In this document: piece after piece, positions 47,829 through 52,086 of the stretch
Layout of the letters: every line of letters begins with the position of its first letter
Numbering within the stretch: position 1 is the stretch's first letter
Assembly (NCBI GenBank): GCA_019448215.1
Contig: CP080408.1
Span: forward strand, 744,001-808,000
Origin: Thalassovita mediterranea
GTDB taxonomy: Bacteria; Pseudomonadota; Alphaproteobacteria; Caulobacterales; Hyphomonadaceae
Direction of reading: 5' to 3'
DNA length: 64,000 nt
Translations under genes and position numbers: made by a program
Notes under the pieces: generated by a model
Seen by the model: the letters and a program-made list of their open reading frames with translations, nothing else
Told to the model about the DNA's origin: nothing
The model's database searches: none

Positions 47829-51063
<3,235 letters not shown>

Positions 51064-51229: not shown

Positions 51230-51364
51230 CCCCTCTCCCGATTGCGGGAGAGGGGTCAGGGGTGAGGGCTCCGGCGCTGGTGGGATTCATCAACGCAGCG
51301 CCAAGTCCAACTCTCATAGCCCTCATCCCCGACCCTTCTCCCGAGGCCGGGAGAAGGGAGCGAT
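51230..51364 (+). repeat. 135-bp double-hairpin repeat, copy 1
   Basis: Left hairpin CCCCTCTCCCG-attg-CGGGAGAGGGG (51230-51255, perfect 11-bp stem), right hairpin CCCTTCTCCCG-aggc-CGGGAGAAGGG (51333-51358, perfect 11-bp stem). Between them, 51256-51270 can pair with 51318-51332 (two weak positions). Together with a second copy in the same orientation 542 bases downstream (119 of 135 bases identical, no gaps) it brackets the DUF559 gene. The gap 51064-51229 before it holds a weak 6-bp hairpin (51124-51157) and nothing coding that I trust. Confidence 0.9.
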
Positions 51365-51410
51365 AGCCACAAGGCTTGCGAGTCCTCTCAACCGAAACGA
51401 TAGTCGTTCG

Positions 51411-51767
51411 ATGAGCGAATACCCATCAACCCGGCGCGCACGGTCGCTTCGCCGACGCGCGAACGCGCCTGAGCAGAAGGCCTGGGAGACACTTCGCCAG
51501 CTGCGCGCCGAAGGCTATGCGGTCAGGCGGCAGGTCAGCGTCGAAGGCCTGACCGTCGATTTCGCGATCCGGTCCCTGAGGCTGGTCATCGAAATAGATG
51601 GCGCGATCCATGACATCGAAGCGGTACGACAGAACGATGCCGAACGCGATGCCAGGCTTCGCTCGGCCGGTTGGCATGTGGTGCGCGTCCCAGCAGAAAC
51701 TGCGATGAGCGGCAATCATCTTATTTCGTTGGTGAGAGATGAAATCGCCAAACGCCTGCAGGAGTGA
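51411..51767 (+). CDS. DUF559 (Vsr-like) endonuclease-fold protein
   Basis: A 118-residue protein of the DUF559 family, related to very-short-patch-repair nucleases (PD-(D/E)XK). Core: EQKAWETLRQLRAEGYAVRRQ, VDFAIRSLRLVIEIDG (Asp, then Glu-x-Asp: the likely metal site), then RDARLRSAGWHVVRV, as in the family. The ATG at 51411 starts this protein; the frame stays open 83 codons further upstream through copy 1 of the repeat. Copy 2 starts 4 bases after the stop. The gene thus forms repeat-gene-repeat. Function unknown; DUF559 genes with repeats of this kind are, from memory, found scattered in proteobacteria. Confidence 0.85.
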   Translation: MSEYPSTRRARSLRRRANAPEQKAWETLRQLRAEGYAVRRQVSVEGLTVDFAIRSLRLVIEIDGAIHDIEAVRQNDAERDARLRSAGWHVVRVPAETAMSGNHLISLVRDEIAKRLQE

Positions 51768-51771
51768 CTTT

Positions 51772-51906
51772 CCCCTCTCCCGATTGCGGGAGAGGGGTCA
51801 GGGGTGAGGGCTACAGCGTTGGTGGGATTCATCAACGCGGCGCAAAGACCCAACCTATCAGCCCTCATCCCCAACCCTTCTCCCGCTGCCGGGAGAAGGG
51901 GGCGAT
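51772..51906 (+). repeat. 135-bp double-hairpin repeat, copy 2
   Basis: Same length and orientation as copy 1, starting 4 bases after the DUF559 stop. Both terminal hairpins are intact: CCCCTCTCCCG-attg-CGGGAGAGGGG and CCCTTCTCCCG-ctgc-CGGGAGAAGGG. The differences from copy 1 are concentrated in the central part and in the right loop, outside the stems. From 51907 to 52086 I see no gene, only a short tandem TGCACCGTC pair near 51990. Confidence 0.9.
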
Positions 51907-52086
51907 TGATTCACCGGCATCGAATTTCCTGAAAACGACCAAGTTTTCTCCCCCCTTTTCAAAAACACCGCCCACACACCGCCAGTGCACCGTCACTGCA
52001 CCGTCCAGACGCCCGGGTTTCCCCCACACCATCCGACCGGAAAATCGAGATTGACCCGCCGGGGCTTCCACGCGAGTTTCCGCCTC

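Follow-up and report, generated by a model that had tools for sequence, protein, structure and literature searches.

A DUF559 nuclease gene framed by BoxC/triplex-motif palindromes in Thalassovita mediterranea is a probable REPtron-like mobile unit

A small DUF559 gene in the genome of the alphaproteobacterium Thalassovita mediterranea lies between two copies of a palindromic repeat. We found that DUF559 genes and such repeats are linked throughout the host family, that the repeat type diverges together with the enzyme lineage, and that genomes contain more repeats where the matching gene is present. Dispersal was observed in single cases, namely one REPIN insertion polymorphism and one repeat–gene–repeat duplication within a genome. 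We therefore consider it probable that the locus is an autonomous member of a REPtron-like mobile family, in which a DUF559 nuclease replaces the HUH transposase and the repeat is a palindrome of the BoxC/PIT/triplex-motif (TM) class. An earlier note on this DNA had proposed that DUF559 operates with its own palindromes in the manner of RAYT transposases and REP elements, and this idea came through most of the comparisons described below, whereas two full direct copies as the unit and a recent movement of this unit found no support.

Results

The locus and its two repeat copies

The window, as we call the whole stretch of 64,000 nucleotides that was analysed (contig CP080408.1), contains the DUF559 gene at 51411..51767 on the forward strand. 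From ATG to TGA it encodes 118 residues with a predicted Vsr/I-Bth0305I-like nuclease fold, and the protein matches Pfam DUF559 (PF04480) with 76.4 bits at a cut-off of 20.6. Two repeats of 135 nt, both on the forward strand and in the same orientation, surround the gene: copy 1 (51230..51364) is separated from the ATG by 46 nt, and copy 2 (51772..51906) begins 4 nt past the stop codon. They align without gaps and are identical at 119 of 135 positions (88%), with 542 nt from start to start and 407 nt between the copies; the earlier note had described the pair correctly.

Repeat comparison and folding place the hairpins, all given on the forward strand, at 51230..51255 and 51333..51358 in copy 1, and at 51772..51797 and 51875..51900 in copy 2; the first of them has an 11-bp stem and a 4-nt loop. 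When folded as single-stranded DNA, the copies reach −48.3 and −46.6 kcal/mol (z = −7.9 and −7.2), a stability equalled by none of 200 shuffles. Of the 16 mismatches between the copies, nine fall into the centre (positions 43–86), two into the loop of hairpin 2 and none into hairpin 1, which agrees with the previous observation that the hairpins are preserved and the differences central. The description as a double-hairpin repeat needs a correction, as the hairpins are real but each copy is in itself an inverted pair, in the way of a REPIN: two BoxC/TM-type palindromes, one inverted relative to the other, enclose a variable centre, and the segment of copy 1 that comprises hairpin 2 and its tail matches, as reverse complement, the hairpin 1 segment of copy 2 with the tail included (43 nt, 81%). 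In copy 1, pattern matching found a G-rich TM motif at 51246..51268 on the forward strand, GGGAGAGGGG-TCA-GGGGTGAGGG, which comprises a stem arm and a putative third strand, and the second motif lies on the reverse strand at 51320..51342, reading CCCTCATCCCCGACCCTTCTCCC on the forward strand.

A recent movement of this unit was not borne out. The unit lies near gyrB or the glyoxalase gene also in five Henriciella genomes (G004, G006, G007, G008, and G014), and it has thus mostly been inherited vertically. An empty-site comparison gave no clean empty site for the unit: homology returns at window position 51961 in G009 and G015, with other sequence filling the gap. The open reading frame after gyrB, at 50277–51063 (listed as 50101–51063), has no Pfam match, and the stretch 50277–51063 does not align with the corresponding gap in G004, G006, G009, and G015.

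The enzyme

Across an alignment of 32 proteins, thirteen residues do not vary, among them D50, E61, D63, G64, H67, D76, R79, and R92, with E61-x-D63-G-x-x-H67 as the invariant stretch, and the conserved acidic and histidine residues presumably have catalytic roles. In a profile search, the window protein matched Neisseria gonorrhoeae NGO0050 (PDB 3hrl) best (2.8e-32), followed by PvuRts1I (2.3e-6) and the catalytic domain of I-Bth0305I (1.8e-5), with Vsr matching weakly (0.069). When the AlphaFold model (pLDDT 84.5) was used for a Foldseek search, I-Bth0305I (3r3p) was the best match (1.7e-4), ahead of 3hrl (4.3e-4) and Vsr (1cw0; 4.5e-3), and two Toxoplasma mitoribosomal proteins ranked between 3hrl and Vsr (2.4e-3 and 2.8e-3). 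Profile, alignment, and model thus agree on a Vsr/EDxHD-like fold with conserved acidic and histidine residues, EDxHD being the family name of I-Bth0305I.

The active-site residues are conserved and under purifying selection. Among the Henriciella orthologues, dN/dS was 0.06–0.17 in the 12 of 21 pairs for which it could be computed; dS was below 0.5 in only three of these 12 pairs, and there dN/dS was 0.16–0.17. Weakly similar domains are found in the long anti-phage proteins Hhe, PDC-S37, and ProA. Viral contigs contained no relative of the window protein.

The repeat class and its copies in the host genome

By its sequence, the window repeat is a member of the known BoxC/PIT/TM class, as pattern matching finds the purine stem arm, the loop, and the purine third strand. 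The TM pattern occurs in 62 of 105 genomes of the host family, with 23 matches in the host itself, and a backward-read control gave 0 in every row. In the parts of PMC4666352 that we consulted, the motif is described from more than 260 genomes, the E. coli repeats having been known since the 1990s, with 23 copies in MG1655, five pairs of them inverted. It is described there as intergenic and its sites as unusually variable (hypervariable). The authors found neither a transposase nor an integrase near the motif, offered horizontal transfer as a guess, called the mechanism behind the local variability unclear, and cited earlier work in which PIT elements blocked DNA polymerase in vitro and had no effect in vivo; the consulted text mentions neither DUF559 nor ycjD.

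In the host genome, a single contig of 3.22 Mb, the 135-bp repeat gave 20 BLAST matches in about a dozen places. The count of solitary copies that the earlier note had proposed cuts both ways, as most copies stand alone, with no DUF559 gene alongside, which that note would have read against a dedicated unit; however, non-autonomous derivatives would give just such a picture. Of the four PF04480 matches in this genome, three are small genes, and the fourth, in a 767-aa frame, is weak. Each of the small genes sits between palindromic repeats, and the repeat type differs among the three: the window type with its 11-bp stem, a short-stem type, and one of the form CCCCCTCCGCCC...CCTCCCCCG. At the group-A DUF559 gene that carries the last type, the centre of the upstream REPIN (L009, 1425–1480) has been swapped for another dispersed repeat (TCCTTCGACAGGCTCAGGATGAGG). 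At another host locus (L004; 1847.5–1848.8 kb of the host genome, G000), two REPINs about 1 kb apart (1501–1630 and 2630–2787) enclose a 168-aa ORF unrelated to DUF559; another short repeat is inserted into the second of these REPINs.

Mobilisation by a RAYT in the host was rejected, as a search of its genome for PF01797 (HUH Y1 transposase) at the permissive threshold of E ≤ 1 was negative, while 10 of 14 control genomes were positive. By eye, no GTAG was seen at the foot of the window's four hairpins; a CTAC lies in the centre of copy 2.

Linkage of DUF559 genes and repeats

PF04480 was found in 58 of the 105 genomes of the host family; the analysis used the family matches other than the 25 weakest, which score at most 51.6 bits and many of which are partial or belong to long ORFs. 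The enrichment of DUF559 genes beside such repeats that the earlier note had expected is pronounced. Repeats shared between the two flanks, direct or inverted (400-nt flanks, E < 1e-5), were found for 64 of 99 DUF559 genes and for 4 of 301 control genes from these loci, with 99 of 102 loci used and three with short flanks excluded. Two of these loci (L090 and L091) are probably one gene of G012 on overlapping contig ends, which was counted twice here and once in the later comparisons. In the hairpin test, for which 99 of 101 family loci were taken, an all-pyrimidine-stem hairpin within 150 nt accompanied 74 of 99 DUF559 genes, 31 of them on both sides, compared with 12 of 512 controls (1 on both sides); 25 of the 99 genes have no such hairpin within this distance. 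The hairpins occur upstream in 58 and downstream in 47 of 99 cases. These two comparisons rule out a coincidence of gene and repeats. In three loci (L023, L026, and L046), the C-terminal tails of the DUF559 proteins (..LPPPTGSAGHLPRKRGRS..), as judged by eye, may be encoded by the repeat.

Gene and repeat are also linked in other phyla. In a class and phylum sample of 56 loci, which is biased toward the best match per genome, 26 share flank repeats and 43 have a hairpin; one alphaproteobacterial genome in our collection (G116) has ten PF04480 matches. Outside the family, 13 named loci were compared, and eight of them share flank repeats (E ≤ 1.3e-5): all four from Deinococcus, two of four cyanobacterial plasmid loci, and those of Sinorhizobium and Azospirillum. 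No shared flanks were seen at the remaining five (two Synechocystis loci, Sphingomonas, Photobacterium, and E. coli), some of which have a one-sided repeat. From 39 plasmid matches, 14 were taken and 13 tested, one long fusion protein being dropped. On three Deinococcus plasmids, the DUF559 gene stands at differing points of the hpaB–hpaE region, and the DUF559 sites observed differ from one another. The two Synechocystis plasmid genes with unshared flanks (L287 and L291) lie in DUF1156 or BREX-PglX neighbourhoods and perhaps represent a defence branch of the DUF559 family.

In E. coli, ycjD (b1289), annotated as DUF559, is followed by one clear and one degenerate BoxC/TM-type repeat, on one side only, in contrast to the window gene. 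At least 80% of the ycjD-locus query was found in 3364 of 5426 E. coli genomes. Between sapF and fabI (L219, 4690–5261), ycjD and its BoxC repeats stand where other phylogroups have eefRABCD, an alternation by phylogroup that is reported in the consulted part of PMC12817139.

Repeat type follows enzyme lineage

Similar enzymes carry similar flanks. Among between-genome, non-syntenic pairs, a flank match of more than 40 bits occurs in 0.3–0.8% of those with protein identities below 40%, and this share rises through 16% and 43% to 81% at 60–70% identity (n = 85) and 100% above 70% (n = 16). Of 44 same-genome pairs whose proteins are 30–40% alike, only one has common repeats. The correlation between enzyme and repeat similarity is r = 0.542, compared with 0.189 (sd 0.043) when flanks were permuted among the DUF559 genes of each genome with syntenic pairs masked, and none of 1000 shuffles reached the observed value. 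As within-genome shuffles never attain it, it is the enzyme lineage and not the host that the repeat type follows. Each side alone behaves likewise, with 0.459 against 0.150 downstream and 0.208 against 0.087 upstream (0 of 1000 in both cases). An earlier shuffle statistic, the sum of products, was flawed in that its permutations could take in scores from syntenic pairs, and it was reached by 973 of 2000 shuffles; a second one, the mean flank score of pairs more than 55% alike, was reached by 0 of 2000. The synteny filter let through at least one pair (L075/L078), which has 3.2 kb of upstream sequence in common.

Layout and movement of the units

The supposition that the unit consists of two full direct copies did not hold as a rule. 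At 16 loci with TMs on both sides of a group-B gene, the DUF559 lineage of the window, the nearest motifs point inward (REPIN-like) in nine, both have the C orientation in five, and point outward in two, so that one inward-pointing repeat per side is the commonest layout. The window unit is of the outward-pointing kind, with a complete REPIN on either side.

A 162-bp REPIN is present in G004, while the same gap, otherwise contiguous, has no REPIN in G000, G015, G009, and G006 (29, 21, 26, and 61 nt, compared with 203–210 nt in G004). Both ends of this REPIN recur in copies elsewhere in the genus; it is sharply bounded on the left, while its right junction is altered or rearranged, and at this single resolved insertion no target-site duplication was seen. 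At the site of a solitary REPIN in G000 (832 kb), the relatives have about 550–1130 nt of other sequence. The DUF559 unit of L113 is unaligned beside an orthologous gene in G004, G006, G008, G009, and G015, and its far side is unaligned too, so that these are no clean empty sites.

In G012, two units at two loci encode proteins that are 97% alike, and their DNA is about 93% identical over about 1.4 kb with REPINs on both sides; the duplicated segment extends past the outer REPs. Among the four flanking REPINs (loci L090, L091, and L098), three have a short palindromic insert in the TM stem that is absent from the fourth, a difference suggestive of conversion between repeats. In addition, several non-syntenic pairs have REP–gene–REP blocks of about 440–600 nt in common. 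Among the non-syntenic pairs with at least 60% protein identity, 74 of 106 align across the gene, only 12 of them for more than 25 nt past the gene on both sides.

Copy number of the motif

All 31 group-B genomes contain TMs (median 10), compared with 31 of 74 other genomes (median 0; p = 5e-10), and the two largest genera, each taken alone, give p = 0.0015 and 0.0002; membership was assigned by eye, and these raw counts include motifs beside the gene. After subtraction of four local TMs per group-B genome, the median is 6 (p = 1e-4). Of the 47 genomes with no DUF559 match at all, 20 have at least one TM, and seven of them (G057, G039, G086, G068, G015, G017, and G021) have 10–24, for which gene loss, assembly gaps, or another mobiliser could be responsible. 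In E. coli, a full-length ycjD-side match goes along with a median of 22 places compared with 6 in 59 sampled chromosomes (60 of 5422 records, one plasmid record dropped), carriers being recognised not by the gene but by whether a 71-nt query from beside ycjD matched over its full length. This association is confounded by phylogroup, as ycjD alternates with eefRABCD.

Discussion

The elementary layout of these units would be REP, gene, and inverted REP, and the solitary REPIN, consisting of REP, short spacer, and inverted REP, can be understood as the same layout with the gene swapped for a spacer, that is, as a MITE-like, non-autonomous derivative moved in trans. We think it rather likely that DUF559 cuts at or for its own repeat and that repair then copies the REPIN. 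The nuclease would recognise its own hairpin or triplex once it is extruded, for example in single-stranded DNA at replication, it would nick or cut at the repeat or at a target that has none, and host repair would copy the REPIN into the break. Such copying would explain why the G004 insertion shows no target duplication and why the sequence at one of its junctions is changed.

The unit can be compared with several known systems. With REPIN–RAYT systems or REPtrons, as far as the consulted parts of PMC3116915 and PMC8266576 describe them, it has in common the inverted REP pair, the dedicated gene beside its own repeat type, the coexisting families, and the solitary copies, and the enzyme lineage is matched to the REP type; in contrast, the window enzyme is a Vsr-like nuclease and not an HUH Y1 enzyme, and the hairpin foot has no GTAG. 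Because both the Y1 enzyme and the GTAG tag are missing, the unit is REPtron-like in its working and not a member of that family. The likeness to the BoxC/PIT/TM elements in the consulted text of PMC4666352 comprises the purine stem arm and purine third strand (GGGAGAGGG-TTA-GGGTGAGGG in E. coli, GGGAGAGGGG-TCA-GGGGTGAGGG in the window), the intergenic position, and the inverted pairs, five of which are described for MG1655. However, that text ties the motif to no mobility gene, and the link to DUF559 comes from the present analysis. The CGTC REPs (PMC3733652, in the part consulted) are likewise palindromic, common in alphaproteobacteria, and described without a dedicated transposase, but they differ by an 8–9-bp stem, mostly starting with AT, and by their CGTC tag. 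In contrast to classical IS or MITE elements, the G004 REPIN, the one insertion resolved, shows no target-site duplication. On the enzyme side, I-Bth0305I is the closest structural relative of the model and also a profile match, but the DUF559 gene lies between palindromes beside ordinary genes, and no intron or interrupted gene was seen. The predicted fold is of the same class as that of Vsr, and a paper naming DUF559 presents Caulobacter VsrA as Vsr-like (PMC12907096, as far as consulted), the difference from Vsr being that the recurrent neighbour of DUF559 is a repeat. The open-licence literature, searched by titles and abstract starts, yielded no work that links DUF559 or ycjD with REP, REPIN, BoxC, PIT, or TM elements, and among the papers listed by a search of it with DNA words, none was on bacterial repeats by title.

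Selfish or defence DUF559 genes could also spread as cassettes by homologous recombination through common intergenic repeats, which would then be landing sites and not substrates. REPs are indeed found genome-wide, one host REPIN pair frames another gene, ycjD and eefRABCD alternate at one locus, some cyanobacterial copies lie in defence-like plasmid loci, and the long anti-phage proteins contain the weakly similar domains mentioned above. However, generic landing sites would not make the repeat type track the enzyme lineage inside single genomes, nor would common repeats be so rare in the same-genome pairs that are 30–40% alike, and we regard this explanation as improbable. About equally improbable, in our opinion, is that DUF559 acts as a structure-specific repair nuclease for hairpins or triplexes that stall replication, kept beside its substrate while the repeats spread by other means. 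The predicted Vsr-like fold would suit such a role, as would the PIT polymerase block seen in vitro and absent in vivo (cited in the consulted part of PMC4666352) and the proposal that Caulobacter VsrA is a repair enzyme (PMC12907096, as far as consulted), but by itself it leaves unexplained the joint repeat–gene–repeat blocks at non-syntenic loci and the presence of three lineages in one genome, each with its own repeat.

We give still less weight to another transposase, a RAYT or an IS, mobilising the repeats with DUF559 as a passenger: the terminal inverted repeats of the REPINs are long and MITE-like and several TM-rich genomes have no DUF559, yet the host has no PF01797 match even at the permissive threshold. 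Least probable of all is a regulatory role, with the palindromes beside the gene acting as its terminators or mRNA stabilisers and their likeness to dispersed REPs being secondary. Copy 2 does follow the stop codon by only 4 nt, and some C-termini seem by eye to run into the repeat, but the hairpins are upstream as often as downstream, free REPINs with identical ends exist, and the repeats differ by lineage.

A mobile unit driven by the DUF559 nuclease therefore remains our preferred explanation for the window locus. The lineage-specific repeat types suggest that the nuclease spreads a widespread repeat, the E. coli BoxC among others, for which no mobility gene had been named in the consulted text of PMC4666352; the CGTC REPs, without a dedicated transposase in the consulted part of PMC3733652, pose a neighbouring question. 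Whether the point can be generalised seems to us evenly balanced: DUF559 nucleases may be the missing mobilisers of the BoxC/PIT/TM repeats and thus a new class of mobile elements that uses neither HUH nor DDE chemistry, with each lineage copying its own hairpin type and YcjD as the K-12 representative. The findings suggest at least two origins of REP-like mobility, based on unrelated enzymes, and linking DUF559, a widespread family, with the BoxC/PIT/TM repeats gives each of them a testable role.
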